Part shown: positions 11,233-62,157 of the stretch, piece by piece | Layout: each line of letters opens with the position of its first letter | How positions within the stretch are numbered: the stretch's first letter is position 1 | Made by a program: the position numbers and the translations under genes | Notes under the pieces: model-generated | Database searches by the model: none | What the model saw: the letters and a program-made list of their open reading frames with translations, nothing else | Told to the model about the DNA's origin: nothing | Assembly: GCA_002005505.1 (NCBI GenBank) | Contig: KV908515.1 | Coordinates: forward strand, 230,840 to 294,839 | Reading direction: 5' to 3' | Source: Botryococcus braunii | Lineage: Eukaryota; Chlorophyta; Trebouxiophyceae | DNA length: 64,000 nt

Positions 11233-11288
11233 TCCCCTGTAGGATCACAGGGGGGCGGGATCACATCCCCTGTACGATCACAGGGGGT
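11233..11288. repeat. Tandem pair of small hairpins
   Basis: The unit ATCACATCCCCTGT-AGGATC-ACAGGGGG occurs twice with one changed base in the loop. In each copy CCCCTGT pairs with ACAGGGG. Confidence 0.75.
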
Positions 11289-11290
11289 CT

Positions 11291-12485
11291 CCCAGCTAGT
11301 CTTAGGAACTTGGCTGTGAAGCGACATACTTCTATGACAGACTTGAGTCTCCTTCACGTAACTTCACGTAGAGGTTAGGACAACTTTGCACTGACACACA
11401 TAGCATCGTGGTATTCAGTGGAATTTGGTTTTGGGACCTCGAATACGTATTCGAGGTCAGTCAAACAAATTCTCAGGCCTCCACATCAGTGTGTTGCCTT
11501 AGGTGCATGAATTGGGACCTTTAGTTACCTTGTCTAGGACACATCATATGTATTGGATTACTAACTAGGAACCTCTTGTAGTGAGAGTCCTTGAGGGACT
11601 CGACTTTTATCGAGTCCCTTGGGCGCCAAACGCGGTCAGGAATACAATTGCTGAAGGCGACAAACTCGGCATTCTTTGGTTGGCCAAATCTTGAGCCACG
11701 GACTGATAGTCCTGTCTGATTGATGCAAATTGGAGTCTGCTGCTGCACATGCTATTTGATTTGTCTTTGAGACACGTGTACTTGTTTGGTTGCCGCAACG
11801 GAAGGCGCTCCTGTCGAAACTGCATTAGTCGCGCCAAAGGGTACGTTGTCATTATGACAGAGGGTAGACTAGCATGCTCTCTTTGATCTACAACGTGAGT
11901 GCCATGTTGCACGTTGCTCTGTCTAAAACGTAATGCTTGGGGCAATAGGTGTGCCGATGTCTGACTTTAAAAACCTCTTCATAGGGCATTGACCAATCCT
12001 TTGGGGACTTAAAAGGTATTAGAATACATCCTTTATGTCTATAGGAATCATCTTTGTAGCCTGATGATGGTGTCGTGAATTCAATGTGCTGTTCGGACCC
12101 AAAGGGGCAAGGTCGTGCCGGACGTACGTCCGGCACATTGCTGTGTCTAAAAAGGAAACACTGAAGCAACTTGTATGTGACGACATATATCAAACGAATA
12201 GTTGTGAGATGCGTTAGGTACTGGGGCAGTCCTATGTAAGATTCTTTAGTTGGCCAGATCTTGAGCCACGGACTGGAAGTCCTGTCTGATTGATGCAAAT
12301 TGGAGCTTGCTGTTGCACAAGCTATTTGGTTTGCCTTTGAGACAGTTGTACTTGTTTGGTTGCCGCAACGGAAGGCGCTCCTGTCGAATCTGTATTAGTC
12401 GCGCCAAAGGGTGTGCCGAAGGTCTGACTTACGAAGCCTCTTCATAGTGCATTGACCAATCCTTTGGGGACTTACAGGTGCTCCA
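11291..12485 (+). mobile_element. Old copia LTR, 5'-truncated solo remnant with doubled R
   Basis: The sequence is a diverged relative of the element 1 LTR, starting inside U3 and ending just after R2. R1 is 11671-12015 and contains an internal GT-AG segment at 11841-11948. R2 is 12241-12477. R1 minus the 108-bp segment is 237 bp, exactly the length of R2. R1 is followed by GTATTA and R2 by GTGCTC. Neither the LTR start nor its CA end is preserved, and no internal coding region adjoins. Confidence 0.8.
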
Positions 12486-19976: not shown

Positions 19977-21654
19977 TGTTGTAGGTAATGACCTAGATCA
20001 GGTTATTACTTAGGGAACATTACTGTTGGACTTATTCAGAGGTATTCTTCTGACTCATCCTAGGCAAAACAGTCGTGCATGCCAGGCTGCCCTGGACGGC
20101 ACGACACTGTTGTGCCTTAGGTGTAAACTACTGCATATGTCTCCCAGCGAGTCCTAGGAACTTGGCTGTGAAGCGACATAATTCCTTGACAGACTTCAGT
20201 CTTCCTCACGTAACTTCACGAAGAGGTTAGGACAACTTTGCATTGACTCACACAGCATCGTGGCACTCAGTGGAATTTGTTTTTGGGACCTCGAACACGT
20301 ATTCGAGGTCAGTCAAACTAATTCTTAGGCAGCCACATCAGTGTGTTTAGTTAGGTACATAATATGGGACCTTTAGTTTATTGTCTAGGACACATCATAC
20401 GTATTGGATTACCAATTAGGGACCTTTTGGAGTAGGAAGTTTTGAGGGACTCGACTTTTATCGAGTCCCTTGGGCGCCAAACACGGTCAGGTATTTAATT
20501 GCTGGAGGCGACAGCCTCAGCATTCGTTTGGTTGGCCGAATCCTGAGCCACGGACTGGAAGTCCTGTCTGGTTGATGCAAATTGAAGCTTGCTCTTGCAT
20601 ATTTGATTTGTCTTTGAGACAGTCGTACTTGTTTTTTGGTTGCCGCAACAGAAGGCGCTCCTGTCGAACCTGTATCAGTCGCGCCAAAGGGTACGTTGTC
20701 ATTATGACAGAGGATAGAATAGCATTTTATATTTGATTTACACCGTATTTGCAATGTTGCTCATTGCTCTGTCTAAATCGTAATGCTTGGGGCAATAGGT
20801 GTGTCGAGGTCTGACTTACGAAACCTCTTCAGTGCATTGACAAATCCTTTGCGGACTTACAGGTATTAAATGTAGTTGCAATTTCATGAAATAATTCCTA
20901 TGTGGTTAGATATTTTGTTGACTCTCGCAAAGCTGTGCTGTTTGGTCGTCAAGGGAACGAGTGTGCCGGACTCAGGTCCGGCACAGAACATATCTGAGAC
21001 GATGCCGTGAAACCAGCTGATGTGAGAAGCTGATACAGTAGAAACGGCCAAAGGATGCGAAAACAATGGTTACAAGTTGTTTGGGCTCCACCTCAGTACC
21101 CGTCCAGTCCGGCCCGGTCCTTCCTCTGCCAAAGCCTTATTCTATCCTGTTCTAAGTGTGTCCCTGTCTCCATCGCCAATGCGCCTTGTCAAGTAAGGGT
21201 CACTCCCTTGGCGCGTGAAGTAGCCACTTCTTGGCGTGGAGGAACATAACTCACGAAGGGACCTTTATGGAGGTCCAAATCCTCGTGGTCCGGTCATTTT
21301 CCTATAACACGCGACTTTTCCTGTTACAGAAGCAAATTATCCGTGTATGAGAATGTGCCAGTAGGGCAAGAAGTAATGATGTCCCATGTAATGATTCGTT
21401 TGGTTGGCCGAATCCTGAGCCACGGACAGGAAGTCCTGTCTATTTGATGCAAATTGAAGCTTGCTCTTGCATATTTGATTTGTCTTTGAGACAGTCGTAC
21501 TTGTTTTTTGGTTGCCGCAACAGAAGGCGCTCCTGTCGAACCTGTATCAGTCGCGCCAAAGGGTGTGTCGAGGTCTGACTTACGAAACATCTACAGTGCA
21601 TTGACAAATCCTTTGCGGACTTACAGGTGTTCTCTTTGCCCATAACCTTTCACA
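19977..21654 (+). mobile_element. Solo copia LTR, complete, with doubled R
   Basis: Runs from TGTTGTAGG to CCTTTCACA with no coding region, and sits inside an inverted LTR. TATTTAA is at 20492, 30 bp before R1. R1 is 20522-20862 (internal GT-AG segment 20691-20798) and R2 is 21394-21626. R1 minus the segment equals R2 at 233 bp. The LTR is about 300 bp longer than its relatives because another element is inserted at 21031-21328. Confidence 0.85.
21031..21328 (+). mobile_element. 298-bp insertion with TG...CA ends and 5-bp duplication
   Basis: The insertion runs from TGATACAG to CTGTTACA and is flanked by GAAGC at 21026-21030 and 21329-21333. The same LTR position is empty in the inverted copy near 21930 and in the element 1 LTRs. 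TG/CA ends and a 5-bp duplication fit a small solo LTR. Orientation is unknown and the family was not recognised. Confidence 0.75.
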
Positions 21655-23396: not shown

Positions 23397-24775
23397 TGTT
23401 GTAGGTAATGACCTAGATCAGGTAATTACTTAGGGAGCATTACTGTTGGACTTATTCAGAGATATTCTTCTGACTCATCCTAGGCAAAACAGTCGTGCAT
23501 GCCAGGCTGCCCTGGACGGCACAACACTGTTGGGCCTTAGGTGCAAACTACTGCAGACTTCTTCCAGCTAGTCCTAGGAACTTGGCTGTGAAGCGACATA
23601 ATTCCTTGACAGACCTCAGTCTTCCTCACGTAACTTCACATAGAGGTTTGGACAACTTTGCATTGACTCACACAGCATCGTGGCACTCAGTGGAACTTGT
23701 TTTTTGGGACCTCGAATACGTCTTCGAGGTCAGTAAAACTAATTCTTAGGCGGCCACATCAGTGTGTTTAATTAGGTACAGAAAATGGGACCTTTAGGTA
23801 TTTTGTCTAGGACACATCATCCGTATTGGATTACCAATTAGGGACTTTTTGGAATGAGAAGCTTTCAGGGACTCGACTTTTATCGAGTCCCTTGGGCGCC
23901 AAACACGGTCAGGTATTTAACTGCTGGAGGCGACAGACTCGTCATTCGTTGGTTGGCCGAATCCTGTGCCACGGAATGGAAGTCCTGTCTGTTTGCTACA
24001 AGTTGAAGCTTGCTATTGCATATTTGATTTGTGTTTGAGACAGTCGCACTTGCTTTTTGGTTGCCGCAAGGGAAGGCGCTCCTGTCGAACCTGTATCAGT
24101 CGCGCGCAAAGGGTACGTTGGCAATTTGACAGATGATAGAATAGCATGATGTATTTGATAACCACTGCATTTGCAATGTTGCTCATTGCTCTGGCTAAAT
24201 CGTAATGCTTGGGGCAATAGGTGTGTCGAGGTCTGACTGACGAAACCTCTACAGTGCATTGACAAATCCTTTTGCGGACTTACAGGTATTGATGTAGTTG
24301 TGATTTATTGAGATAATTCCTATTTGGTTAGATATTTCGTTGACTGTCGCAAAGCTGTGCTGTTAGGTCGTCAAGGGAACGAGTGTGCCGGACTCAGGTC
24401 CGGCACAGAACATGTTTGAGACGATGCTATGAAACCAGCTGATGTGAGAAGTAATTTATGCGTATATGAGATTGTGCCAGTAGGGCAAGCAGTAATATTG
24501 TCCCATGTAATCGATTCGTTGGTTGGCCGAATCCTGTGCCACGGAATGGAAGTCCTGTCTGTTTGCTACAAGTTGAAGCTTGCTATTGCATATTTGATTT
24601 GTGTTTGAGACAGTCGCACTTGCTTTTTGGTTGCCGCAAGGGAAGGCGCTCCTGTCGAACCTGTATCAGTCGCGCGCAAAGGGTGTGTCGAGGTCTGACT
24701 GACGAAACCTCTACAGTGCATTGACAAATCCTTTTGCGGACTTACAGGTGTTCTCTCTGCCCATAACCTTTCACA
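23397..24775 (+). mobile_element. Copia element 1, 5' LTR with doubled R and internal intron-like segment
   Basis: The 1379-bp LTR runs from TGTTGTAGG to CCTTTCACA and is followed directly by the primer binding site. TATTTAA is at 23914, 30 bp upstream of R1. R1 is 23944-24285 and contains GTACGT...CAATAG at 24113-24220 (108 bp). R2 is 24514-24747 (234 bp), exactly R1 minus that segment. R1 is followed by GTATTG, and R2 ends GGACTTACAG 28 bp before the LTR end. Both R copies carry GTGTTTGAG, which differs from the LTR at 31768. The 5-bp left flank is CTCTG. Confidence 0.9.
24113..24220 (+). other. Candidate spliceosomal intron inside R1 of the LTR
   Basis: The segment starts GTACGT and ends CAATAG, and is absent from the second R copy of the same LTR. 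The two R copies are otherwise collinear. Equivalent segments are at 11841-11948, 19457-19558, 20691-20798 and 32484-32587. Confidence 0.65.
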
Positions 24776-24790
24776 GGTTATGGGCCCACC
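24776..24790 (+). other. Primer binding site for half initiator tRNA-Met
   Basis: GGTTATGGGCCCACC directly follows the LTR. It is complementary to the anticodon-stem/loop region of plant initiator tRNA-Met (GGUGGGCCCAUAACC) and not to a tRNA 3' end. Drosophila copia is primed in this way. Confidence 0.85.
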
Positions 24791-24926: not shown

Positions 24927-26879
24927 ATGACCCAGTCTGCGGAATCATCTCCAATGGACCAGCTGAACCAACAGCCTCCTGTAAGTCTGGGTGGTCAATC
25001 CACAGAACAGGAGAAGACAGCACTCCCAGTGGTTTCGATACTGACAGCCTTACTGCACGAGGACACAACAAAGCCATCAACAACAAATGTTAAGGTAGCC
25101 CATCCCTTATTAAAGGATGGGTGGAATTTCAAGTCCTGGCTTTATGATCTGACCACTGCAGCTATCCACAAGGAGTGCACGGAGGCCTTTCAGAAACCCC
25201 TTCCTTTCACGAGAGCAAATGCTGCTGCCATGATGCTGATCACTGGCAGTGTCCCAGTGGAGTGGAGTCCTATGTTGACAATGAAGCCCTCTGCCTTTGA
25301 TGCCCTGTTATACATAGCCAATAAGTTCACTGGAGGACACAACAAGTCTGTTAACCGCCAGTGGCTACACACACTCAAAACAGAGCACATGACCAGGGAG
25401 GAGACGTTCGAGACATTTGTCATGAAAAAATTCATACTTTTCCAGAACCTCCTGGACAACTCCCACTCCATTGACCCCGAAGATGTCACTAATGCTATTG
25501 TGGATTGTCTCCCCACTGAGCTAGCACAGTTCAAAGGAGCACTCTATGGGCATTGTTGCGGGCGCTCCTCAGAAGATGTGGTAAAAATCCTGCAGAGCCA
25601 TGCCTATGGTGCTGGCTTCAATGACCAGCTCCCTCGACCTCTTCCCAAGGCAGCGGCAGTCCTCCCAAAGTCCCAGGACCCTGAGGCAGACCAGTCAGAG
25701 CAAGACAGAAAGAGGTCACGAAAAGTCAGGTGCTGGGAGTGTGGGAGCCGTGGACACATCAGCAAGGAGTGCACAAAATGGAAAAAGGGTACTGGAGAGG
25801 AGCAAGCTGGCGACAGAAGTAAGCATTCACTGCCAAGTGTTCCCTCTGCATCCAACAGTACCCATGTTCCATGTCCTAAAAACGCAGAAGCCGTTCCTAT
25901 CTCACTGCCCAGTGTGACGTTTAATGTATTACAAAGTGGTGGGATAGGGCACTCGTGCGAGGAATGGCTTGTGGACTCTGGGGCTACTGTCCACCTGGTT
26001 AATGACTTTGGTGTATTGCAGAACCCCACAGTGTACACAGAACCACGTCAACTGCAGTTGGCTACATCAGAGTCTCATGGTTCCATCATTGCTAGTGGGA
26101 GTGTGTGTCTGGTGAATGCAGAAGGGCAGTTACTGTGGCTCCATAATGTACAATGTGTTCCACAGGCCAGCACAAATCTCTTGTCTGTATCAGCTGGGGT
26201 AAGGGATGGTATTCAATTTGTTCCACGTGAGAATGGGACCTACAGCAGTCTGGTGGGACCCATGGGTTGGGAGTGCAGCATTGTAGAAAGATATGGGTTG
26301 TATGTTCTGAGGGGAATTTATCCCACCAAATATCAGGTGGCTTGTCAAGTGTGTGTGAACCCTATGTCTGCACATCATGCTGCGCACAAACCTGCACATA
26401 ACTGCAAGTTGCGAAAACTTTGGCATGAGAGGTTAGGGCATCCTGGGAAGACAGCCACAGAGCGTTTGAGCAGGGAGGAGTTGTGTACTGGGATACCTGT
26501 GTCCCTTCTTCCTTGTTCAAAGTGCGATACTCACTGTGACCCTTGTGTTCGGGGAAAGCAGTGTAAACCATCTTTCAAGCCAAGTTCACATGAGCCGCCT
26601 CGAGTACTGCATCGAATACATGCGGATACGGTTGGTGCCATGTCAACTCCTGGCGTTGAAGGGGAAAAGTTTTCTGTCACAGTAGTGGATGAGTTGTCTA
26701 ATTTCGTTTCAGTGTTACCAGTCACTAGCAAGGCTACCATTGCATCTCATTTGACAGACACTACTACATACTGGGAGAGACAGACAGAATCCAAGGTTAA
26801 GGCGGTTAGGACTGACAGGGGCACAGAGTTCTTGAATAAAACGTTTCATGGGTTCTGTACAGAGAATGGCATTCTGTGA
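24927..26879 (+). pseudogene. Copia element 1 gag-pol, copy A, cut in the integrase
   Basis: The polyprotein starts MTQSAESSPMDQ. It has a gag region with LLKDGWNFKSWLYDLT near residue 60, a CCHC zinc knuckle CWECGSRGHISKEC near 267, protease WLVDSGATVHLV near 345, and the HHCC region LWHERLGHPG near 497. The integrase core has its first Asp in HADTVG near 565 and its second in RTDRGTEF near 627. The frame ends two codons after NG at 26874, where an inverted LTR begins, so the catalytic Glu, RT and RNase H are missing from this copy. The bases before the ATG repeat the LTR end (CCCATAACCTTTCACA at 24909-24924). Confidence 0.88.
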
Positions 26880-28252
26880 AAGGTTATGGGCAGAGAGAAC
26901 ACCTGTAAGTCCGCAAAAGGATTTGTCAATGCACTGTAGAGGTTTCGTCAGTCAGACCTCGACACACCCTTTGCGCGCGACTGATACAGGTTCGACAGGA
27001 GCGCCTTCCCTTGCGGCAACCAAAAAGCAAGTGCGACTGTCTCAAACACAAATCAAATATGCAATAGCAAGCTTCAACTTGTAGCAAACAGACAGGACTT
27101 CCATTCCGTGGCACAGGATTCGGCCAACCAACGAATCGATTACATGGGACAATATTACTGCTTGCCCTACTGGCACAATCTCATATACGCATAAATTACT
27201 TCTCACATCAGCTGGTTTTATAGCATCGTCTCCAACATGTTCTGTGCCGGACCTGAGTCCGGCACACTCGTTCCCTTGACGACCTAACAGCACAGCTTTG
27301 CGACAGTCAGCGAAATATCTAACCAAATAGGAATTATCTCATTAAATCACAACTACATCAATACCTGTAAGTCCGCAAAAGGATTTGTCAATGCACTGTA
27401 GAGGTTTCGTCAGTCAGACCTCGACACACCTATTACCCCAAGCATTACGATTTAGCCAGAGCAATGAGCAACATTGCAAATGCAGTGGTTATCAAATACA
27501 TCATGCTATTCTATCATCTGTCAAAGTGCCAACGTACCCTTTGCGCGCGACTGATACAGGTTCGACAGGAGCGCCTTCCCTTGCGGCAACCAAAAAGCAA
27601 GTGCGACTGTCTCAAACACAAATCAAATATGCAATAGCAAGCTTCAACTTGTAGCAAACAGACAGGACTTCCATTCCGTGGCACAGGATTCGGCCAACCA
27701 ACGAATGACGAGTCTGTCGCCTCCAGCAGTTAAATACCTGACCGTGTTTGGCGCCCAAGGGACTCGATAAAAGTCGAGTCCCTGAAAGCTTCTCATTCCA
27801 AAAGTCCCTAATTGGTAATCCAATACGGATGATGTGTCCTAGACAAAATACCTAAAGGTCCCATTTTCTGTACCTAATTAAACACACTGATGTGGCCGCC
27901 TAAGAATTAGTTTGACTGACCTCGAAGACGTATTCGAGGTCCCAAAAAACAAGTTCCACTGAGTGCCACGATGCTGTGTGAGTCAATGCAAAGTTGTCCA
28001 AACCTCTATGTGAAGTTACGTGAGGAAGACTGAGGTCTGTCAAGGAATTATGTCGCTTCACAGCCAAGTTCCTAGGACTAGCTGGAAGAAGTATGCAGTA
28101 GTTTGCACCTAAGGCCCAACAGTGTTGTGCCGTCCAGGGCAGCCTGGCATGCACGACTGTTTTGCCTAGGATGAGTCAGAAGAATACCTCTGAATAAGTC
28201 CAACAGTAATGCTCCCTAAGTAATTACCTGATCTAGGTCATTACCTACAACA
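26875..28252 (-). mobile_element. Element 1 LTR in inverted orientation
   Basis: A 1378-bp LTR on the minus strand, complete from terminus TGTGAAAGG (26875) to CCTACAACA (28252). R2 is 26903-27136 (234 bp). Both R copies carry the same GTGTTTGAG variant as the 23397 LTR. It abuts CATTC in the integrase on its left and the polypurine tract of the inverted pol on its right, so it is the 3' LTR of the minus-strand internal region. Confidence 0.9.
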
Positions 28253-28263
28253 CTTCCCCTTGG
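28253..28263 (-). other. Polypurine tract
   Basis: On the minus strand CCAAGGGGAAG directly precedes the LTR start TGTTG. It is the expected plus-strand primer site. Confidence 0.75.
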
Positions 28264-31767: not shown

Positions 31768-33140
31768 TGTTGTAGGTAATGACCTAGATCAGGTAATTAC
31801 TTAGGGAGCATTACTGTTGGACTTATTCAGAGGTATTCTTCTGACTCATCCTAGGCAAAACAGTCGTGCATGCCAGGCTGCCCTGGACGGCACAACACTG
31901 TTGGGCCTTAGGTGCAAACTACTGCATACTTCTTCCAGCTAGTCCTAGGAACTTGGCTGTGAAGCGACATAATTCCTTGACAGACCTCAGTCTTCCTCAC
32001 GTAACTTCACATAGAGGTTTGGACAACTTTGCATTGACTCACACAGCATCGTGGCACTCAGTGGAACTTGTTTTTTGGGACCTCGAATACGTCTTCGAGG
32101 TCATTCAAACTAATTCTTAGGCGGCCACATCAGTGTGTTTAATTAGGTACAGAAAATGGGACCTTTAGGTATTTTGTCTAGGACACATCATCCGTATTGG
32201 ATTACCAATTAGGGACCTTTTGGAATGAGAAGCTTTCAGGGACTCGACTTTTATCGAGTCCCTTGGGCGCCAAACACGGTCAGGTATTTAACTGCTGGAG
32301 GCGACAGACTCGTCATTCGTTGGTTGGCCGAATCCTGTGCCACGGAATGGAAGTCCTGTCTGTTTGCTACAAGTTGAAGCTTGCTATTGCATATTTGATT
32401 TGTCTTTGAGACAGTCGCACTTGCTTTTTGGTTGCCGCAAGGGAAGGCGCTCCTGTCGAACCTGTATCAGTCGCGCGCAAAGGGTACGTGGCACTTTGAC
32501 AGATAATAGAATAGCATGATGATTTGATAACCACTGCATTTGCAAGTTGCTCATTGCTCTGGCTAAATCGTAATGCTGGGGCAATAGGTGTGTCGAGGTC
32601 TGACTGACGAAACCTCTACAGTGCATTGACAAATCCTTTTGCGGACTTACAGGTATTGATGTAGTTGTGATTTAATGAATAATTCCTATTTGGTTAGATA
32701 TTTCGTTGACTGTCGCAAAGCTGTGCTGTTAGGTTGTCAAGGGAACGAGTGTGCCGGACTCAGGTCCGGCACAGAACATGTCTGAGACGATGCTATAAAA
32801 CCAGCTGATGTGAGAAGTAATTTATGCGTATATGAGATTGTGCCAGTAGGGCAAGCAGTAATATTGTCCCATGTAATCAATTCGTTGGTTGGCCGAATCC
32901 TGTGCCACGGAATGGAAGTCCTGTCTGTTTGCTACAAGTTGAAGCTTGCTATTGCATATTTGATTTGTCTTTGAGACAGTCGCACTTGCTTTTTGGTTGC
33001 CGCAAGGGAAGGCGCTCCTGTCGAACCTGTATCAGTCGCGCGCAAAGGGTGTGTCGAGGTCTGACTGACGAAACCTCTACAGTGCATTGACAAATCCTTT
33101 TGCGGACTTACAGGTGTTCTCTCTGCCCATAACCTTTACA
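31768..33140 (+). mobile_element. Copia element 1 LTR, second plus copy
   Basis: A complete LTR from TGTTGTAGG to CCTTTACA, with one base lost near the end compared with the 24775 terminus. TATTTAA is at 32285. R1 is 32315-32652 with an internal GT-AG segment at 32484-32587 (104 bp). R2 is 32880-33113 (234 bp), again exactly R1 minus the segment. Both R copies carry GTCTTTGAG where the 23397 LTR has GTGTTTGAG in both. The left flank is GAATG, the reverse complement of the CATTC at 26870. Confidence 0.9.
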
Positions 33141-37131: not shown

Positions 37132-37748
37132 TGTGAAAGGTTATGGGCAGAGAGAACACCTGTAAGTCCGCAAAAGGATTTGTCAATGCACTTGTAGAGG
37201 TTTCGTCAGTCAGACCTCGACACACCCTTTGCGCGCGACTGATACAGGTTCGACAGGAGCGCCTTCCCTTGCGGCAACCAAAAAGCAAGTGCGACTGTCT
37301 TAAACACAAATCAAATATGCAATAGCAAGCTTCAACTTGTAGCAAACAGACAGGACTTCCATTCCGTGGCACAGGATTCGGCCAACCAACGAATTGATTA
37401 CATGGGACAATATTACTGCTTGCCCTACTGGCACAATCTCATATACGCATAAATTACTTCTCACATTAGCTGGTTTATAGCATCGTCTCAAACATGTTTT
37501 GTGCCGGACCTGAGTCCGGCACACTCGTTCCCTTGACGACCTAATAGCACAGCTTTGCGACAGTCAACGAAATATCTAACCAAATAGAATTATATCATTA
37601 AATCACAACTACATCAATACCTGTAAGTCCGCAAAAGGATTGTCAATGCACTTGTAGAGGTTTCGTCAGTCAGACCTCGACACACCTATTGCCCCGAGCA
37701 TTACGATTTAGCCAGAGCAATGAGCAACATTGCAAATGCAGTGGTTAT
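37132..37748 (-). mobile_element. Element 1 LTR, inverted, truncated
   Basis: Begins at the exact LTR terminus TGTGAAAGG and contains R2 and part of R1. It stops inside the internal GT-AG segment of R1 at GTGGTTAT, where the element 2 LTR begins. The 5 bases before it are GAAAG. Confidence 0.85.
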
Positions 37749-38128: not shown

Positions 38129-38504
38129 GCCCTTCCAGCTGAGCCAAGTAAAAGCAGGAGTGAAGGTCGTCTACGGATGGGTCAGACGTAAGCGTCAACA
38201 AAGGAGCTCGAGCATGGCGCAGCGGCGCAAGGGAACTCGAGTGTACCAGGACCATTATCTTACTCACAGTTTACCTTTCTGGGAAATTCATAATTGAAGT
38301 TTTAGCTGTGCTTTATCATTCATAGACGTTGTCTAGAAGCACTGAGTGAGTCGGGCCGGACTCCGGCGCAAACTTCTGAGGGGAACATATCTGCTACTAC
38401 TGTGCAAGACTGGCTGGTAAATTTCCATGACATGGAGGGAATTGTAGGGTATTGCTGCATTCCAGAAGTTTATGAGTAAGTTTGGCTGGTGAAGTGACAA
38501 TAGT

Positions 38505-41447
38505 ATGACAAAAAGGGGCAAAGAAAAGGAAAGTAGCAGTGAAACAGCAATGTCTCAACCTGGAGAAGTCAGTGGGGCCACTCCAGGGCAGTCTATGACC
38601 GGGACACAATCAGCCACTGCAGAACCAAAGGTGGAGATTGACAAGGCAGCCTACATCCCCAATACCTCTAATCCAAAGATGACTGTCATGCTTGATGATG
38701 GAGGGCGCAATTTTGAATTTTGGTATGAAAATTTGGAGGCGTGCGCAAACACCAAGGGGGTCAGAGCGGCTTTGGAGAGGCCAATGCCAGGGTCGGTGGA
38801 GAACTCAGCCATCAAGCAGTGGCTGATCCAGTCAGTTCCAGTCATCTGGCATTCTCAGATCTCATGCCACAAAGCAGCGTTCGACTTCATCGCGTGGGTG
38901 AAGAACAGTCACACTGGAGGGAGCAACCAAGACATCAACCTTGAGTGGTACAAGGAAATGGAGCAGGGCATCAAGACAGGGGAGACACTCAAGGTCTACC
39001 TCTACAGAATGATGGATCTGGCTACAAGTCTCAGAAACAACGCGTTCATCCTCTTGGACCACAATGTTGGGGAGCTGATGGTGAAGGGCCTCCCTCCTGT
39101 GCTGAGGCTCGAGTCCCTGGAGGTTATGGCAACCGACAAGCCGCCATTGGAGCTGATTCAAAGAATCCTGCGCGCCGCAGCCAGCCGTGGGTACAAGGAC
39201 CCACCTGCAGAGGGAACACCTCAGGCCATGGCAGCTGCAGCAGTGGCTGGTCCCTCTGGGGGGGTAGCTGGAGCGTCATCAAGCGCTGGAGCTGCACCAG
39301 GAGTGGGAGCAGTACCGGGAGTTGGAGCAGCACTACCAGCAAACGAACAGCCTCCCGCTGGCCCCTCTGCAACTACTTTTGGTGGCAGGGGGCGTGGACC
39401 TGGCAGGGCAAGAAGGCCCAGAGAGGAGCTTACATGCCACTTCTGCAAGGCAAAGGGCCACTTCATGACTGACTGCGGACCGCTCAGGCAGCTGCAGGCT
39501 CTGCATCAAAACATGCAAGCGGCAAGCGTTGGGCCTGCAGCTTACTGGGGCCAGGGAGGCCCACAGTCGTCTCCTCAAGCCTGGTGGGACCATGGATCTG
39601 GCCGGGGTGGCCCGCCTTCATCCGCTTCCAGCCCTGGACCTCCTTCAGCATATAACTATCCAACAAGTCAACACACGTTTCCGGGGTGGCATTTACCACC
39701 TCCACCCCCTCCTTCTGGTGAGGCGATGTTTATCTCTCTCAATGTGCTTGCCCCAACTTCGCATGGAGCTAGCAGCACATCTTGGTTAATAGATAGTGGT
39801 GCCTCTGTGCATATAGTCAATGATCTCTCATTGCTCCATAATCCAGTTATGCATAGACAGCCTCTTCCTCTGCACTTGGCAACCTCAGACGCCAAGGGAG
39901 GAATCATTGCATCTGGGTCTGTATGCCTTGTGAATGCAAGGCACGAAGTATTCTGGCTGCACAATGTGCAGTGTGTTCCTTCTGCGCATACCAACCTCAT
40001 TTCAGTCACTGGTGCAATTCAGGATGGAGCATCTTTCCTGACTGACACTGCAGGTGGTTACACAGCCATGAAGGGACCTGAAGGGTGGTGTGGAGATATC
40101 ACCCGCGCACGAGGTCTGTTTTTTTTGGAGTTTGTTAGTCCTGTCAGAGGGCAGCAAGTTGGCTGCAGACATATTGATCACATGGCTGAGGCGTCTCATC
40201 TTAGGAAAGGACACGTGTGTAGCGAGAGATCTCTGTGGCATGCTAGGTTAGGTCATCCTGGTGCCAGCAGCATGCAGAGGTTCTCCAAGGAAGATCTGGT
40301 TACAGGAATCAATATCTCCCTTGCTCCCTGCTCTGAGTGCCCCAAGCACTGTGAATCGTGTATACAAGGGAAACACTCCAGACCTCCTTTCCCTGTATCT
40401 TCCAGGCCTGCACATCACCCACTCGATAGAGTCCATGTGGATACTGTGGGTCCCATATCACCTCCTGCCATCACAGGTGAACGATATTGGGTCACTGTAG
40501 TGGATGAAAGTTCACACCAAGTTGCCTCCCTGCCTGTGAAGTCAAAGGATGGCATCCCAAAGGCTGTGATAGACCTGCTCCGTTTTTGGCAGACCCAACG
40601 AGGCACGGTTGTGAAGTGTGTGAGGACTGACAGGGGTTCAGAGTTCCTGAACCAGCAATTCAAAGAGTTTTGTGCTCAGCAGGGCACTAAGATGGAGTCC
40701 TCAGCGCCCTACACGCCTCAGCAGAATGGGGTGGCGGAGAGGATGAATAGGACCCTGAAGGAGCGAACAAGGACTCTGTTGGTCCATGCTGCAGCAGACC
40801 CCTCCCTTTGGAAGGAGTCGCTTGAGACAGCTACCCTCCTCTACAATGTGGGTCCTACTTCAGGCAGGTCCCTGACCCCCATGGAATTATTCTTTGGTGT
40901 CAAACCTGATGTGTCTGTGCTGCGCACGTTTGGCTGTGTAGCCCATGTGCACATTCCCAGTGGCCAAAGGTCTGTTTTTGGGCCCAAGACCATCCCTGGG
41001 ATGTTTACTGGTTATTGTCCCCAGTCTAAAGCGTATCGTGTGTACGTGGGGAATGGAGTGTGGAAGGAGAGTAGGGACGTCAGCTTTATCGAGCACTTGA
41101 GGGGGGCTGAGAGAGTGGGTCTATCAAAGGTCCAGCCTGGGTCTGTCTATGATTCTAGGATATCACCCCCCCTTGGCAGTGAGAATCTGGCAACGCCTCA
41201 AGCAATTCCCTCTGCTGCTCCACCCACGTTCTGGGATGAGGAGGATGACCATGGAGTGGAGACGCTTTCCACTGGGGCTCCTGGGACCTCTGGACTTTGT
41301 GCTGGGGATCAGTCTGGAGACGGGACCACAGCAGCACATGACCAAGGAAACCCCACCAGCCTGGATTCTACTGTTGGGACCCCAGAACCATCTCAGCACT
41401 CGTGGTCGGTGCTTGAGCATATGCAGAATCTGGCCAGGGGGGTGTAG
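38505..41447 (+). CDS. Copia element 2 gag-protease-integrase polyprotein
   Basis: A 980-residue open frame starting MTKRGKEKESSS. It contains a gag domain (MLDDGGRNFEFWYENLEA near residue 65), an Ala/Gly-rich segment (245-285), a CCHC knuckle CHFCKAKGHFMTDC near 310, and a Pro/Gln-rich spacer. Protease WLIDSGASVHIVNDL is near 426 and HHCC LWHARLGHPG near 575. The integrase triad is in VDTVGPIS (643), RTDRGSEF (706) and QQNGVAERMNR (about 743), followed by the conserved FGCVAHVHIP and YCPQSKAYRVY segment. All catalytic residues are present. It ends LARGV at TAG beside a run of six G. RT and RNase H follow in the -1 frame, so a frameshift is needed for a full polyprotein. Codons and order match elements 1 and 4. 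Confidence 0.9.
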   Translation: MTKRGKEKESSSETAMSQPGEVSGATPGQSMTGTQSATAEPKVEIDKAAYIPNTSNPKMTVMLDDGGRNFEFWYENLEACANTKGVRAALERPMPGSVENSAIKQWLIQSVPVIWHSQISCHKAAFDFIAWVKNSHTGGSNQDINLEWYKEMEQGIKTGETLKVYLYRMMDLATSLRNNAFILLDHNVGELMVKGLPPVLRLESLEVMATDKPPLELIQRILRAAASRGYKDPPAEGTPQAMAAAAVAGPSGGVAGASSSAGAAPGVGAVPGVGAALPANEQPPAGPSATTFGGRGRGPGRARRPREELTCHFCKAKGHFMTDCGPLRQLQALHQNMQAASVGPAAYWGQGGPQSSPQAWWDHGSGRGGPPSSASSPGPPSAYNYPTSQHTFPGWHLPPPPPPSGEAMFISLNVLAPTSHGASSTSWLIDSGASVHIVNDLSLLHNPVMHRQPLPLHLATSDAKGGIIASGSVCLVNARHEVFWLHNVQCVPSAHTNLISVTGAIQDGASFLTDTAGGYTAMKGPEGWCGDITRARGLFFLEFVSPVRGQQVGCRHIDHMAEASHLRKGHVCSERSLWHARLGHPGASSMQRFSKEDLVTGINISLAPCSECPKHCESCIQGKHSRPPFPVSSRPAHHPLDRVHVDTVGPISPPAITGERYWVTVVDESSHQVASLPVKSKDGIPKAVIDLLRFWQTQRGTVVKCVRTDRGSEFLNQQFKEFCAQQGTKMESSAPYTPQQNGVAERMNRTLKERTRTLLVHAAADPSLWKESLETATLLYNVGPTSGRSLTPMELFFGVKPDVSVLRTFGCVAHVHIPSGQRSVFGPKTIPGMFTGYCPQSKAYRVYVGNGVWKESRDVSFIEHLRGAERVGLSKVQPGSVYDSRISPPLGSENLATPQAIPSAAPPTFWDEEDDHGVETLSTGAPGTSGLCAGDQSGDGTTAAHDQGNPTSLDSTVGTPEPSQHSWSVLEHMQNLARGV

Positions 41448-41470
41448 AAACTCAATCCCAGGTAGAAAAA

Positions 41471-43717
41471 ATGCAGAAGGTACAAGAGGGGTTGCGAATG
41501 CAGGGGAAGTCACAAATTCCCCTTCCTCCAGGGACCACCCTTACAAGGGAGCAGCGTTATGTACAGCGCGTGGCTAGGAGAGAGCATTCTGACATCCCAT
41601 TGCATGCCCCTGACCCAGGTCAGGCAATTGTGAGTGAGCCAAACATGGTTGGTCTCCCTGATATGCAGGGGCAGGTTGAGACAGTCGAGGCTATGTTCGG
41701 TGCAGATGTAAGAGATGAGAGCAGTGGGTTAGACATGCCAGCAGTAGGGGAAGCTGGTGCCCAATCCCAGTCACTGGCTAGTCATGCTTATGGTGTGCAG
41801 GCTGACATTGTAGGCGCAGCTCAGGCAAGTCTGGGTAGTGTGCCCAAGTGTGAGTCCAGGAGAGAGAGAGAGCTGCTGCTCCCCTCTGCATTGCGGAAGG
41901 TGCGAGAATGTAAGGGTGCTGCACATGAGTCCAGTAGTCAAGGAGAGAGAGAGAGACTTGAGAAGGAATCAGATAATCCCGGCAGTACTGCCCAGTCCCA
42001 GCATAAGGTACATAATGTACCTTATTCTGGCAACCAGGGAGAGAGAGAGAGAGAAGGGAACAGCATCAGTAAGGCTGACAGCCCTGCTGCACCACAGCAT
42101 AAGGTACAGAGTGTACCTTCTGTCACGTTGGGAAAAGTTCACGTGCCCTCAAACTTGAGGGAAGCCCAGCGCTCACCTCAGTGGGAGTTTTGGCAGCAGG
42201 CAATGCAAGAGGAGATGGAGTCTTTAGACACCCATGAGGTTATGCAGTATGTGGAAAGACCCCATGGGCAGAAAGTTATCCCTGTTCATTGGATTTTTTC
42301 TACAAAAAACGATGCACATGGGAATGTCACTCGGTTTAAAGCAAGATTGGTTGCCCAGGGTTGCAGACAGATTCCTGGTATAGATGTTGGTGAGGTTTTT
42401 GCACCTACCAGCAGCTATGGTGCTAGGAGAGCTGTGCTGGCAGTGGCTGCCACACAAAATCTTGAGATCCACCAAGTGGATATCAAGACAGCTTTTCTCA
42501 ATGGGGAGTTGGAGGAAGAGGTCTATGTAACCCAACCACCAGGATTTGAGAATGGCAACACGAGAGTTGTGTGCAAGCTCAGGAAGGCACTCTACGGTCT
42601 TAAGCAAGCCCCACGGGCTTGGCACAAGACCTTGAGCGACAAGTTGAGCGTGATGGGGTATAGTGTGTGCAAGAGCGACGCTGGGGTATACATCAGGAGG
42701 GCCCCTGATGGTAATCTGTCGTTTATTCTTGTTTATGTCGATGATCTTCTCATAGTTGCCAGAGTGGTTGCAGAGATTGAGTGGGGGAAAGAGTTATTGA
42801 AGAAGGACTTCACCATCCATGATTTGGGAGAGGTGAATGATTTCCTGGGGTGTCAGGTCCTACGCAATAGAGTTCAGGGCACTATTTCCATGAGTTGCAC
42901 TCCCAAGATTGATGCTCTTGTGGAGAAGTTTGGCGTTGCTGATGATGGACGTGGGGTTGATACCCCCATGTCCAAGGACTTCGTGGCTAGCAGCAGACCC
43001 GAGTCCTCAGATGGTATGTCACATGGGGCTGGTACCCCTCTGCCACCTGGTCATCGATACTGCGAGTTAATTGGATCGTTACTGTACATAGCCAATACGA
43101 CCCGGCCTGACATTTCTCAGGCTGTTGGAGTGTTGTCAAGGTATAGAATGACACCCACTACCTCACACTGGAATGAGGCCATTCGAGTGCTGAAGTACTT
43201 GAGAGATACCAGAGAGTTAGCTCTTACTCTGGGTGGAAAGGGCCCTGAGCTAGAAGGCTATGTTGATGCCGACTATGCTGGGGACCTGGACCACAGGTAT
43301 TCCACCACTGGCTATGTTCTATCAGTCTATGGTAGTGCCGTGGTTTGGGGAAGCAAGAAGCAGAGCTCAGTTGCTACCTCAACTGTGCAAGCTGAGTTTA
43401 TGGCAGCTGGCCATATTGTGAAGGAAGCCAACTGGCTAAGGGGCTTCTTGGAAGAGATAGGGGCTGCACCTTGGAGGGTCAAAATTTTCTGTGACAACCA
43501 AGGATGCATTTCTAATTTACGGAACCCCCTGTATTCCAAATTCACAAAGCACGTTGCAGTAAGCTTCCACTACGCTAGGGAAGCTATGGCACTTGGGCAG
43601 GTAGATATCCTCTATGTGGAATCTGCACGCAATGTGGCTGACATTATGACCAAGCCACTTGCCAAGCCCGTGTTTGTTGGTCATCGTGATTCACTAGGTT
43701 TGAGAAGATACACTTAA
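41471..43717 (+). CDS. Copia element 2 reverse transcriptase-RNase H
   Basis: A 748-residue open frame in the -1 frame relative to the upstream polyprotein. The frame is open upstream of its first ATG back into the G run at 41437-41442. After a linker with repeated GEREREL-like charged runs comes RT (KVIPVHWIFSTKNDAHGN near 260, QVDIKTAFLNGELEEEVYV near 335, KALYGLKQAPRAW near 375, LVYVDDLLIV near 423). RNase H follows (GYVDADYAGDLD near 596, AEFMAAGHIVKEANWLRG, IFCDNQGC, RNVADIMTKPL near 727). The YVDD box and RNase H acidic residues are intact and no internal stop is seen. With the first frame, this makes element 2 the best-preserved element in the window. Confidence 0.9.
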   Translation: MQKVQEGLRMQGKSQIPLPPGTTLTREQRYVQRVARREHSDIPLHAPDPGQAIVSEPNMVGLPDMQGQVETVEAMFGADVRDESSGLDMPAVGEAGAQSQSLASHAYGVQADIVGAAQASLGSVPKCESRRERELLLPSALRKVRECKGAAHESSSQGERERLEKESDNPGSTAQSQHKVHNVPYSGNQGEREREGNSISKADSPAAPQHKVQSVPSVTLGKVHVPSNLREAQRSPQWEFWQQAMQEEMESLDTHEVMQYVERPHGQKVIPVHWIFSTKNDAHGNVTRFKARLVAQGCRQIPGIDVGEVFAPTSSYGARRAVLAVAATQNLEIHQVDIKTAFLNGELEEEVYVTQPPGFENGNTRVVCKLRKALYGLKQAPRAWHKTLSDKLSVMGYSVCKSDAGVYIRRAPDGNLSFILVYVDDLLIVARVVAEIEWGKELLKKDFTIHDLGEVNDFLGCQVLRNRVQGTISMSCTPKIDALVEKFGVADDGRGVDTPMSKDFVASSRPESSDGMSHGAGTPLPPGHRYCELIGSLLYIANTTRPDISQAVGVLSRYRMTPTTSHWNEAIRVLKYLRDTRELALTLGGKGPELEGYVDADYAGDLDHRYSTTGYVLSVYGSAVVWGSKKQSSVATSTVQAEFMAAGHIVKEANWLRGFLEEIGAAPWRVKIFCDNQGCISNLRNPLYSKFTKHVAVSFHYAREAMALGQVDILYVESARNVADIMTKPLAKPVFVGHRDSLGLRRYT

Positions 43718-43737: not shown

Positions 43738-44431
43738 TGTTGAGTTCTGAACATTATTATTGAATGCCTTGTGCTTTAAGTGATCTTCATGTGTGCACTA
43801 TTAGGATATGGGTCCATTGAGAACATAAGGTACCTTGAGACACGGCAGATTCTGGACGTTTTCGAACATAAGGTACAATCCTATCTAGATCACACGTTTG
43901 TCGGATGAACTCTTAAGGCTGCCCCACCGGAGTGAATACCAACTGGTTGTGAAAGATGCTGGGCATCACCAGATGCTAGTCTTGTCCGACAGTTGTGTGT
44001 GGCACTCAGCAGACAGTCGTACGGACTGTAGCTGGAGTAACTTCGTCTATTGACGACCTGTCTGCTTTGTACAGGTACGGTGCGGCAGTGTGTGTTGTAT
44101 CATTGTTGCTATTGTGAGAGTGAACAAGCTTAGTGTACCCTGTAGTCACTCAAACAGATAAGGGACAGTGACTTCAGGGAGTATAGGCATGTACTTGAAC
44201 GTAGCCGTCTAGAGCCTTATCTAGTGATTGCTTGATCGGTGCTTGTGTACAAGATAATGATGTAACGTAACTGGTTGTGAAAGATGCTGGGCATCACCAG
44301 ATGCTAGTCTTGTCCGACAGTTGTGTGTGGCACTCAGCAGACAGTCGTACGGACTGTAGCTGGAGTAACTTCGTCTATTGACGACCTGTCTGCTTTGTAC
44401 AGGGAAAGCCGATTGCCTATAACCTTTCACA
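43738..44431 (+). mobile_element. Copia element 2, 3' LTR, long form with doubled R
   Basis: 694 bp. TCTTAAGG is at 43911, 30 bp before R1. R1 is 43941-44074 and R2 is 44269-44402, both 134 bp. R1 is followed by GTACGG. R2 ends GTCTGCTTTGTACAG, a good splice-acceptor match, 29 bp before the LTR end. Removing 44075-44402 (GT...AG, 328 bp) gives the short 5' LTR. The 3' flank is GTAAG, which does not match the 5' flank of the element (GTTAT). Confidence 0.9.
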
Positions 44432-46313: not shown

Positions 46314-47040
46314 TGAACAATTCTGGGCGTAATGTTCCCTGTATGTCCCGGCACGAAGGGTGTTAAGCTCGGTCGGGTCTCTTGCTGTGTGTAGGAGAGC
46401 AAGCAGAGCCCGACTATGTGTTGACACTTGTGGCAACTGATCAGAGATAAGCACCCGGAGTGCTCTTTCAGTCCCAAACAAGTCATTACATTGCTTCTTG
46501 CTCTCTCTCAACGCCAAGGAATTCAAACTACCTCTTCTACGCATCGACAGATAGTCCGCATTACCATTGTTCGATGAGCCAAGCATTAGCAACATTCTAA
46601 TACTCTTATCTAGACCTCTTCCTAATCAATTGTTCATGCAAGTCACACTAAGATGCAGCACTTTACCTGTATGTCCCGGCACGAAGGGTGTTAAGCTCGG
46701 TCGGGTCTCTTGCTGTGTGTAGGAGAGCAAGCAGAGCCCGACTATGTGTTGACACTTGTGGCAACTGATCAGAGATAAGCACCCGGAGTGCTCTTTCAGT
46801 CCCAAACAAGTGCCGAGCCCTTCATGCCTGCTGTCTATATCCTTTCTAGCAAGAACGCGTCAAATTGCATTACTCTCTTTCGCCTAAGTGGAATCAGTCC
46901 AGATCAATTATGGCAGAACTCTAGAGTTCTGCCATCCTTACTCAACCTCTGAGATTGTTCACAGTGATTGCTTTAGAGAAGCCTGGCCACTATTACTCTT
47001 CTGAGGGAAAGTCACTAATTGTTCTTTCACTATTATAACA
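46314..47040 (-). mobile_element. Copia element 4, 3' LTR
   Basis: A 727-bp LTR on the minus strand (TGTTATAATAG ... AATTGTTCA). R1 is 46667-46811 and R2 is 46339-46483, both 145 bp. On the minus strand R1 is followed by GTAAAG and R2 ends GGGACATACAG before GGAACATT. A TATA-like ATATAGA lies 25-30 bp upstream of R1. The target duplication AATAT is at 46309-46313 and 54808-54812. Confidence 0.92.
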
Positions 47041-53381: not shown

Positions 53382-54807
53382 TGAACAATTCTGGGCGTAA
53401 TGTTCCCTGTATGTCCCGGCACGAAGGGTGTTAAGCTCGGTCGGGTCTCTTGCTGTGTGTAGGAGAGCAAGCAGAGCCCGACTATGTGTTGACACTTGTG
53501 GCAACTGATCAGAGATAAGCACCCGGAGTGCTCTTTCAGTCCCAAACAAGTCATTACATTGCTTCTTGCTCTCTCTCAACGCCAAGGAATTCAAACTACC
53601 TCTTCTACGCATCGACAGATAGTCCGCATTACCATTGTTCGATGAGCCAAGCATTAGCAACATTCTAATACTCTTATCTAGACCTCTTCCTAATCAATTG
53701 TTCATACAAGTCACACTAAGATGCAGCACTTTACCTGTATGTCCCGGCACGAAGGGTGTTAAGCTCGGTCGGGTCTCTTGCTGTGTGTAGGAGAGCAAGT
53801 AGAGCCCGACTATGTGTTGACACTTGTGGCAACTGATCAGAGATAAGCACCCGGAGTGCTCTTTCAGTCCCAAACAAGTGCCGAGCCCTTCATGCCTGCT
53901 GTCGATATCCTTTCTAGCAAGAACGCGTCAAATTGCATTACTCTCTTTCTCCTAAGTGGAATCAGTCCAGATCAATTATGGCAGAACTCTAGAGTTCTGC
54001 CATCCATTACTCAACCTCTGAGATTGTTCACAGTGATTGCTTTAGAGAAGCCTGGCCACTATTACTCTTCTGAGGGAAAGTGTGAAAGGTTATGGGCAAT
54101 CGGCTTTCCCTGTACAAAGCAGACAGGTCGTCAATAGACGAAGTTACTCCAGCTACAGTCCGTACGACTGTCTGCTGAGTGCCACACACAACTGTCGGAC
54201 AAGACTAGCATCTGGTGATGCCCAGCATCTTTCACAACCAGTTACGTTACATCATTATCTTGTACACAAGCACCGATCAAGCAATCACTAGATAAGGCTC
54301 TAGACGGCTACGTTCAAGTACATGCCTATACTCCCTGAAGTCACTGTCCCTTATCTGTTTGAGTGACTACAGGGTACACTAAGCTTGTTCACTCTCACAA
54401 TAGCAACAATGATACAACACACACTGCCGCACCGTACCTGTACAAAGCAGACAGGTCGTCAATAGACGAAGTTACTCCAGCTACAGTCCGTACGACTGTC
54501 TGCTGAGTGCCACACACAACTGTCGGACAAGACTAGCATCTGGTGATGCCCAGCATCTTTCACAACCAGTTGGTATTCACTCCGGTGGGGCAGCCTTAAG
54601 AGTTCATCCGACAAACGTGTGATCAAGATAGGATTGTACCTTATGTTCGAAAACGTCCAGAATCTGCCGTGTCTCAAGGTACCTTATGTTCTCAATGGAC
54701 CCATATCCTAATAGTGCACACATGAAGATCACTTAAGCACAAGGCATTCAATAATAATGTTCAGAACTCAACAGAAAGTCACTAATTGTTCTTTCACTAT
54801 TATAACA
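53382..54807 (-). mobile_element. Copia element 4, 5' LTR, split by a solo LTR
   Basis: Matches the LTR at 46314-47040 almost base for base. R2 is 53407-53551 and R1 is 53735-53879, both 145 bp. At 54080 it is interrupted by an element-2-type LTR and resumes at 54779. The outer end TGTTATAATAG (54807) is followed by target duplication AATAT. Confidence 0.92.
54081..54773 (-). mobile_element. Solo LTR of element 2 family, long form
   Basis: A 693-bp minus-strand LTR from TGTGAAAGG to CAGAACTCAACA, with both R copies. It is inserted in the element 4 LTR with 5-bp duplication GAAAG at 54076-54080 and 54774-54778. The other element 4 LTR has the empty site. It contains no coding sequence. Confidence 0.93.
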
Positions 54808-56514: not shown

Positions 56515-57541
56515 TGTTATAAAATGGGGATCATCAGGTGTACTTGGGAAAATTTCACTGCACATCTGATGAGATTCCCCTACATTGATTTGCATGTTTG
56601 AAGAGGCCAAATAAGGTACAGCTGCATAAGGTACAGGTGTACTGCATGATATGTCGGAGACATACTTAGTGTATAGAATAAATGTGTAAGTATATTGACT
56701 GATGAAAGACATTTGAGACCTGCTCATAAGCATTGAAATAAAGTTAAAGGGCCTGCAGACTTGATCCTGGAGTGTACAGGGTGTTACGGACTTACAGTAG
56801 AAGTTCCGGGGTGCAATTACGGTACTTATCGTGAGATTCGAGTAAGTTAGACGTAAATGCGCCATCTCCGAGTGGTTTAAAGGTCTCAGGAACTAACTCG
56901 ATGATCGAATCGAGATCCGAACGGGTTCACGGAGCTCATATCTTCTCGTCGAGTCATTTCACGGAGCGTGTGTTTGGCTCCGAGGCTCTGGATCGAAACT
57001 CTTGTGGATAGATCTTGTCGTTTATACGGGCTAAGATATTTTCGGGTCGAGTTCGAGAATAAACCGGTAGGACTGAACGGCAAGTGTACGGTTCTACGAA
57101 TTCACGCATAGTACGGAGCCGCAGATCAGCTCTCCGTAGTGTTAGAGTGACAAAGACAAGCAAATGCAGAGGAGGCAATGATGTCAGACCTCCTGAGGTA
57201 CCGTAGGTATTTAAGGGATGAAGGCAGAGGGTACTGGTCAGTTCATACGTTGTCGAACTCTAGTTTGTGAAGCCCGTCAAGTGGATAGGGCTGTCCAACT
57301 GTCTTTTGTGAGCATTGCTGATGATTGCAATACCTCGCAGGTATCCCTGAATGTTATGCTTAGCTTAGTGAGTCACATCAACACACAACACACATTGTAA
57401 CAGTTCATACGTTGTCAAACTCCACTTTGTGAAGCCCGTCAAGTGGATAGGGCTGTCCAACTGTCTTTGTGAGCATTGCTGATGATTGCAATACCTCGCA
57501 GGGTGTCTTAAATGTGTGTAGGTCGACGCTAACCGTGCCAT
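56515..57541 (+). mobile_element. Copia element 3, 3' LTR with doubled R, 3' end approximate
   Basis: Starts TGTTATAAAATG after the purine tract ATGAGGGGAGG. TATTTAAG is at 57208-57215, about 30 bp before R1. R1 is 57241-57340 (100 bp) followed by GTATCC. R2 is 57403-57501 (99 bp) and ends ACCTCGCAG before GGTGTC. The LTR end is not certain. GTGCCA at about 57541 would be a plausible CA end. Confidence 0.7.
57208..57215 (+). promoter_or_regulatory. TATA-like box upstream of R1 in element 3 LTR
   Basis: TATTTAAG lies 26-33 bp before the first base of R1. Equivalent TATTTAA words lie 30 bp before R1 at 23914, 32285 and 20492, and TCTTAAGG lies at 43911. No such word precedes the R2 copies. Confidence 0.6.
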
Positions 57542-61465: not shown

Positions 61466-62157
61466 TAATATATTCAGAGCTTGGAGTATCCTGCGTGGTG
61501 GCGGCACGGAGGGTGTCAGACGATGTCCTCTCTACTTGTTCGTTGTGAAGTAGACGAGTGACATATGCATACAGTGACTGGTTAGCAACAACTTGGAAGA
61601 CACCCGGAGTGCCACTATTGTTCCAACCAAGTATTACAAAGCTCTCTTCTCTCCTAACGAGACGGTGCTGTTTGAATGACCTTATCCTACTCTCACTTGG
61701 ATAAGTCTCAAGACATTGCCCGATGAGCATCCTTCAACACTAAATGCCTAGCATGTCATACTACAGTGTCTCTAGCTGATTTAATGAACAATCTAATACT
61801 AGACAGGATACCTGCGTGGTGGCGGCACGGAGGGTGTCAGACGATGTCCTCTCTACTTGTTCGTTGTGAAGTAGACAAGTGACATATGCATACAGTGACT
61901 GGTTAGCAACAACTTGGAAGACACCCGGAGTGCCACTATTGTTCCAACCAAGTGCCTTGCTCCTCCGTGCACACACCACAAAACCCTCTTTCAACAAACG
62001 TGTCTGTAACGTGCGTTATGACTGTCAATGTTCAAATCATGTATTGCCGGGAAGAACCTACAGTTCTGCCCACACCTTAATAACTGATATGGTTCTGTCC
62101 TTGAAATTGTCCACCAGTACTCCACTGAGGGAAAGGCATAAATATTACATAACATAA

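Follow-up and report, generated by a model that had tools for sequence, protein, structure and literature searches.

Doubled R blocks in the LTRs of Botryococcus braunii copia elements suggest that R2 is a spliced copy of R1

Why should an LTR carry its R block twice, and can an element that is copied from spliced RNA keep its introns by this arrangement? These questions are raised by a stretch of 64,000 nucleotides from Botryococcus braunii (the window, by which the whole stretch is meant; part of contig C190 of an assembly of 176 Mb in 989 contigs). Retroelements that are copied from spliced RNA normally lose their introns. A first-pass annotation had reported a block doubled inside the copia LTRs of the window and had read the 5′ leader as an R1 exon, an intron (spacer plus R2) and a U5 exon, with R2 rebuilt from spliced RNA. 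A repeat comparison of the LTRs concerned confirmed the doubled block: the order in the copia LTR is U3 – R1 – spacer – R2 – U5. The sequences suggest that R2 is a spliced copy of R1, the LTR holding both an intron-containing transcript start and its processed version. Taken as a whole, replication of these copia elements via spliced RNA, with R2 rebuilt at each jump, is the best explanation and in our judgement a very probable one. In the titles and abstract openings covered by a literature search no LTR of the doubled-R type was found.

Anatomy of the copia LTRs

The window contains nested copia elements with open reading frames for gag_pre-integrs, rve, SH3 and RVT_2 domains. One ORF (38493–41444) contains gag_pre-integrs, rve and SH3_retrovirus and the next (41417–43714) RVT_2; the integrase thus precedes the reverse transcriptase (RT), which is of the RVT_2 type. 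With these domains, LTRs that start with TG and end with CA and target duplications of 5 bp (the last two by eye) the elements belong to Ty1/copia, and their LTR breaks the rule of one R per LTR. A protein search with the window pol ORF gave a best identity of 86% among the best 120 of 8000 scored candidates; named relatives among the matches listed include [Myrmecia] bisecta, Paspalum and Tanacetum. The genome also contains PF00504 exons, one of which matches chlorophyll a/b-binding proteins in the PDB; together with TGTAA as the likely poly(A) signal (see below), these suggest a chlorophyte alga as host. The features are as follows (window coordinates).

23397–24775, plus strand: family A LTR, 1379 bp, TGTTGTAGG...CCTTTCACA
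23914–23920, plus strand: TATA-like box TATTTAA, ~30 nt before R1 (by eye)
23944–24285, plus strand: family A R1, 342 nt (exon 1 23944–24112, intron 24113–24220, exon 2 24221–24285)
24113–24220, plus strand: GT-AG intron within R1, 108 nt, GTACGTTGGC...GGGGCAATAG, missing from R2
24286–24747, plus strand: second, predicted intron, running from the donor GTATTG behind R1 through spacer and R2 to the acceptor ACAG that ends R2
24506–24510, plus strand: TGTAA, putative poly(A) signal, 3 nt before R2
24514–24747, plus strand: family A R2, 234 nt, exon 1 and exon 2 joined without the intron
24748–24775, plus strand: family A U5, 28 nt
24776–24790, plus strand: GGTTATGGGCCCACC, putative primer binding site (PBS)
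26875–28253, minus strand: family A LTR copy (R1 27706–27365, R2 27136–26903)
31768–33140, plus strand: family A LTR copy (R1 32315–32652, R2 32880–33113)
19977–21654, plus strand: subfamily A2 LTR, about 92% identical to A (R1 20522–20862, R2 21394–21626)
11288–12480, plus strand: old partial A-type LTR (R1 11671 to ~12016, R2 12241 to ~12478)
43738–44431, plus strand: family B LTR (R1 43941–44074, donor GTACGG, R2 44269–44402)
54081–54773, minus strand: family B solo LTR, target duplication CTTTC (R1 54571–54438, R2 54243–54110)
46314–47012, minus strand: family C LTR, 3′ part (R1 46811–46667, donor GTAAAG, R2 46483–46339)
53382–54081, minus strand: family C LTR copy (R1 53879–53735, R2 53551–53407), followed by GGTTATGGGCCCACC
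56515–57554, plus strand: family D LTR, 3′ end approximate (R1 57240–57340, donor GTATCC, R2 57402–57501)
61466–62100, minus strand: family E LTR, ends approximate (R1 61953–61812, donor GTATCC, R2 61632–61491)

Two observations support the LTR ends and hence the view that one LTR contains both blocks: the solo LTR 54081–54773 is flanked on both sides by the 5-bp duplication CTTTC (by eye), and GGTTATGGGCCCACC directly follows U5. The block lengths first given for families A (234 without the intron), B (134/134), C (145/145) and E (142/142) stand, while the blocks of family D measure 101/100; the copy for which 237/237 had been claimed (near 11291) is an old, decayed A copy, in which the block ends can be placed only roughly. 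A plus-strand placement of family E was rejected: it is on the minus strand that its three parts (R1, R2 and U5) fall into place and match the family found at locus L017, and GTATCC agrees with this strand.

The family A LTR has more than 40 near full-length copies among 69 genome matches. Two observations concern this family in particular. The spacer of the A2 LTR is interrupted by a stretch of 298 bp (21030–21327), possibly a small mobile element. Family A LTRs also abut inverted partial A LTRs (in the window at 37132–37748 and 26875–28253, elsewhere on C62 and C441). The break points recur at LTR positions 621 and 762, for which an inversion, an effect of assembly or nested insertion into preferred sites are possible readings.

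Introns, block borders and genome-wide spread

In family A the segment 24113–24220 begins with GTACGT and ends with AATAG, and R1 without this segment is identical to R2 (0 mismatches in 234 nt). Family H was found as a complete element (L008) with LTRs of 1332 bp and CACTG target duplications (by eye). In its R1, two introns (GTAAGG...GTGCAG, 105 nt, and GTAAGA...GTACAG, 109 nt) separate three exons, and its R2 is the exact join of the exons, without any mismatch over 289 nt in the 3′ LTR and with 2 in 289 in the 5′ LTR. Three introns in two families thus combine GT...AG borders with exact absence from the processed copy. That they are gone from R2 precisely at their GT-AG borders we take as the decisive evidence for copying from spliced RNA. 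Introns of the host begin alike: those of the beta-tubulin gene start with GTACGT, GTGTGA, GTAAAC, GTGAGT, GTATTA, GTATGC, GTAAAA and GTGAGG and end with AG, and one of them starts with GTACGTTG, like the family A intron (all by eye).

The borders of the blocks were compared in 14 representative lineages (A, B, Bb, C, Cb, D, E, E17, F, G, H, I, J and K). In all of them R1 ends with AG followed by GTR and R2 ends with AG, the representatives other than K having been drawn from a list pre-filtered for GT/AG; in family K, R1 ends with CAG followed by GTAACG and R2 with CAG followed by GAATAC. The rule that GTA always follows R1 had to be widened to GTR, families Bb, E17, G and J having GTG. The AG at the end of R2 held throughout; the distance from there to the LTR end, put at 25–40 bp, did not, U5 reaching about 50–60 nt in D and F. 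The first base of R1 is A in 14 of 14 lineages, after removal of a leading C that in some is common to both blocks.

The motif TGTAA ends 1–3 nt before R2 in all 14 lineages and in none is found within 30 nt before R1; the chance rate from shuffled spacers is ~0.024 per lineage on average. UGUAA is placed ~17 nt before the cleavage site in chlorophytes (PMC1868727) and 10–20 nt before it in Chlamydomonas (PMC4701671). From its position and these distances, cleavage would occur ~10 nt inside R2, and TGTAA is a putative poly(A) signal. The motif had been missed in the first-pass annotation and would supply a reason why R2 must be there. Judged by eye only, 6 of the 14 lineages (A, Bb, D, F, G and I) have a clear TATA-like stretch near −30 of R1 and four have a weaker one (B, C, Cb and E17); in the other four (E, H, J and K) it is unclear or lacking. 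Reinserted poly(A)-ended RNA of family B was not found with a pattern that covered only tails starting 6–16 nt inside R2.

Direct-repeat pairs collected without a filter number 89: donor, acceptor and TGTAA occur together on one strand in 56, donor and acceptor alone in 10, TGTAA alone in 14 and neither in 9. Nineteen of the 24 one-signal pairs represent individual exons from the intron-bearing families A and H; the remainder consists of decayed copies, one block lying at the edge of a locus and one non-LTR repeat (L020:2144). Of the nine pairs without signal, three are decayed A copies, three were formed with neighbouring LTRs, two are the middle exon of H and one is a minisatellite.

R is doubled not only in the LTRs listed from the window but in at least one LTR at 18 of 20 RVT_2-centred loci elsewhere in the genome, which were picked by hand for variety of score and contig from 150 scored loci (of 2658 RVT_2 candidates); some of these doubled LTRs belong to adjacent elements. 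The two exceptions are L015, which has a single-R 3′ LTR, and L018, which ends before R. A local duplication, named at the outset as what would refute the layout, is thereby ruled out, the 14 lineages spanning the window and many other contigs and falling into about nine groups with R2 less than ~0.7 identical between groups (C, Cb, E, E17 and K are linked at 0.70–0.87, B and Bb at 0.79). For gypsy elements, one of three loci examined (L041) gave an LTR pair, of 480 bp and without a doubled block; these are too few for a rule.

Could R1 and R2 be ordinary duplicated regulatory repeats, homogenised by gene conversion or recombination, with no part for splicing? Direct repeats can indeed be homogenised, and unequal recombination could yield LTRs with one or three R blocks (see below). 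Ordinary repeats would hardly account for an R2 that lacks three GT-AG introns of R1 with exact borders in two families, nor for block ends that coincide with GT/AG and TGTAA in 14 lineages, nor for an unfiltered set in which most pairs have all signals and most of the rest are single exons or decayed copies. We consider this reading improbable.

Single-R and triple-R forms and the renewal of R2

LTRs with one or three R blocks exist. In family K, 40 LTRs were scored out of 859 candidates found with the single-R L015 LTR as query, so that the numbers are not genome frequencies: 32 are doubled (two with shortened U5), 7 single-R (five loci, query included) and 1 triple-R. The elements at C184 and C380 have single-R LTRs at both ends, 100% alike within the element, and are flanked by the target duplications ATTTC and AGTTT, respectively (by eye). 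The single-R haplotype of C184 equals that of the doubled L050, L015 shares its haplotype with three doubled LTRs (L051, L052 and L058), and C380 resembles L053 closely; the single-R forms thus match or resemble different doubled ones, and the second R has been lost more than once. None of five single-R LTRs checked contains TGTAA, the two TGTAA that were found being in the flanks. Family A has at least two single-R copies (L059 and L060), in which the intron, the spacer and one R are missing together.

In replication via spliced RNA a spliced strong-stop cDNA that lands on R1 would give a single R, and an unspliced one that lands on R2 a triple R. Both forms are also predicted by recombination between the repeats. 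At L015, where the 5′ LTR keeps spacer and R2 and the two LTRs are unlike, the single-R form may have arisen after insertion or by recombination. In this 5′ LTR (L015:780–1200 on G000:C672) a minisatellite-like sequence, which ends with CAG directly before the donor GTAACG, takes the place of R1. Its spacer, TGTAA and R2 have remained intact; the 3′ LTR is single-R. The triple-R LTR (L056, G000:C672:29440–30660) has a length of 1014 bp with two equal spacers of 179 nt; at L057, the one place examined for it, no partner LTR was found.

The forms also bear on the possibility that splicing serves translation only, the genomic RNA being unspliced and R2 being rebuilt by a slip of the reverse transcriptase between R1 and R2. 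A precedent for keeping translated and replicated RNA apart is BARE, with separate pools according to the title and abstract opening of PMC3735527. Unspliced RNA would carry the introns of R1 into R2, which is not the case in A or H, and unspliced strong-stop cDNA predicts triple-R LTRs, of which there was one among the 40 scored in family K with the single-R query. We therefore regard splicing for translation only as quite unlikely. Several points nevertheless count against replication via spliced RNA. A slip of RT or of DNA between R1 and R2 gives the same product as the R1-to-U5 junction, and nothing in the scheme accounts for the intron inside R1 being kept at the 3′ end instead of being spliced out there. 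The negative search for poly(A)-ended family B RNA (within the range of tails covered), the TATA-like stretch that is unclear or lacking in four lineages and the single-R case at L015 weigh on the same side.

R1 and R2 evolve in concert. In 36 LTRs from six related sets (L024 and L025 are perhaps the two ends of a single element; a filter excluded L029) the mean identity of R1 to R2 of the same LTR is 0.967–1.000 versus 0.80–0.96 between LTRs, in 6 of 6 sets, and in 32 of the 36 the R2 of the same LTR comes closest to R1, alone or in a tie. U3 and spacer are 0.65–0.95 identical between LTRs, from which it follows that R diverges across lineages about equally in some sets. The greater likeness within than between LTRs indicates that R2 has been renewed repeatedly and not merely inherited. 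An R2 derived once from a spliced transcript and since then simply inherited along with R1 would also lack the introns, yet in all six sets the likeness of R1 to its own R2 exceeds that of R1 to R1 and of R2 to R2 across LTRs, which makes a single origin very hard to believe.

Proposed replication cycle and known systems

Replication via spliced RNA, as first proposed for the window, is supported by the exact absence of R1 introns from R2 in two families, by the concerted evolution of the two blocks, by TGTAA before R2 but not before R1, by host introns of the same type (by eye) and by the single-R and triple-R forms. The start site, the splicing of the intron between R1 and U5, the position of the poly(A) site, the route of strand transfer and the function are inferred from sequence in what follows.

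Transcription would start at the first A of R1. The 5′ leader would be spliced from the GT after R1 to the AG that ends R2, and also across any intron in R1, the genomic RNA thus starting with R(spliced)-U5-PBS. In the 3′ LTR cleavage and polyadenylation would take place ~12 nt after TGTAA, within the first ten or so nucleotides of R2, and hence before the acceptor is synthesized, with R1 and spacer being retained at the 3′ end. The minus-strand strong-stop cDNA of the spliced leader would then jump onto the 3′ end via a short R overlap and rebuild U3-R1(with introns)-spacer-R2(spliced)-U5 in both new LTRs. The 3′ end would contribute everything from U3 to the spacer, the introns of R1 included, and the spliced 5′ end would contribute R2-U5. 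An intron reaching from the end of R1 to U5 would contain the poly(A) site of the 5′ LTR, and the full-length RNA could in this way escape early polyadenylation. Going further, we think it rather likely that this copia radiation depends on the spliceosome, only spliced RNA jumping faithfully, with the leader encoded twice, the 5′ poly(A) signal hidden in an intron and the single-R forms without TGTAA as dead ends.

A natural design of this kind would combine a spliced 5′ end with an unspliced 3′ end, regenerate the introns in every round and tie splicing, choice of the poly(A) site and strand transfer together in one LTR. The old question of how identical LTRs act differently at the two ends becomes testable with host RNA; if true, the intron-hidden 5′ poly(A) signal solves the use of one poly(A) site only at the 3′ end. 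Tools for LTR annotation and dating may misread doubled-R elements.

In retroviruses such as HTLV-1 and BLV each LTR has a single R, which contains a splice donor, and the genomic RNA stays unspliced. The donor within the LTR and the long distance of the start site from the poly(A) site are features in common; here R occurs twice and the RNA that is replicated appears to be spliced. Ogre-type LTR elements have an intron in their coding part, which survives because unspliced RNA is replicated. They, too, keep an intron despite replication via RNA, whereas in the B. braunii elements the 3′ end would serve to restore it. In BARE, a copia element of barley, splicing is reportedly involved in the RNA pools. 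The distinct pools (PMC3735527, title and abstract opening) make BARE a copia element with more than one RNA form, as those described here would be; a duplication of R is not mentioned in that title or the start of the abstract.

With other Ty1/copia elements those of B. braunii share gag_pre-integrs, rve, SH3 and RVT_2, the TG...CA ends and the 5-bp duplications, and their putative PBS may likewise be of the half-tRNA type; they differ in the doubled R with introns in the LTR, R2 corresponding to spliced R1. Drosophila copia has a PBS for an internal part of initiator tRNA-Met. Directly after the LTR, families A, C and K have GGTTATGGGCCCACC, a putative PBS that we take to be complementary to the anticodon arm of initiator tRNA-Met, and families D and F have TGGTATCGGCG, also a putative PBS. 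Presumably, TGGTATCGGCG is of the tRNA 3′-end type and GGTTATGGGCC of the half initiator-tRNA type. The two kinds of putative primer site both follow doubled-R LTRs, one at L002, L003, L007, L009 and L012, the other in window families A and C. In family A the end of U5 and the putative PBS form an inverted repeat (24760–24784; CCCATAACC TTTCACA GGTTATGGG), and U5 thus resembles the tRNA loop with which the PBS would pair.
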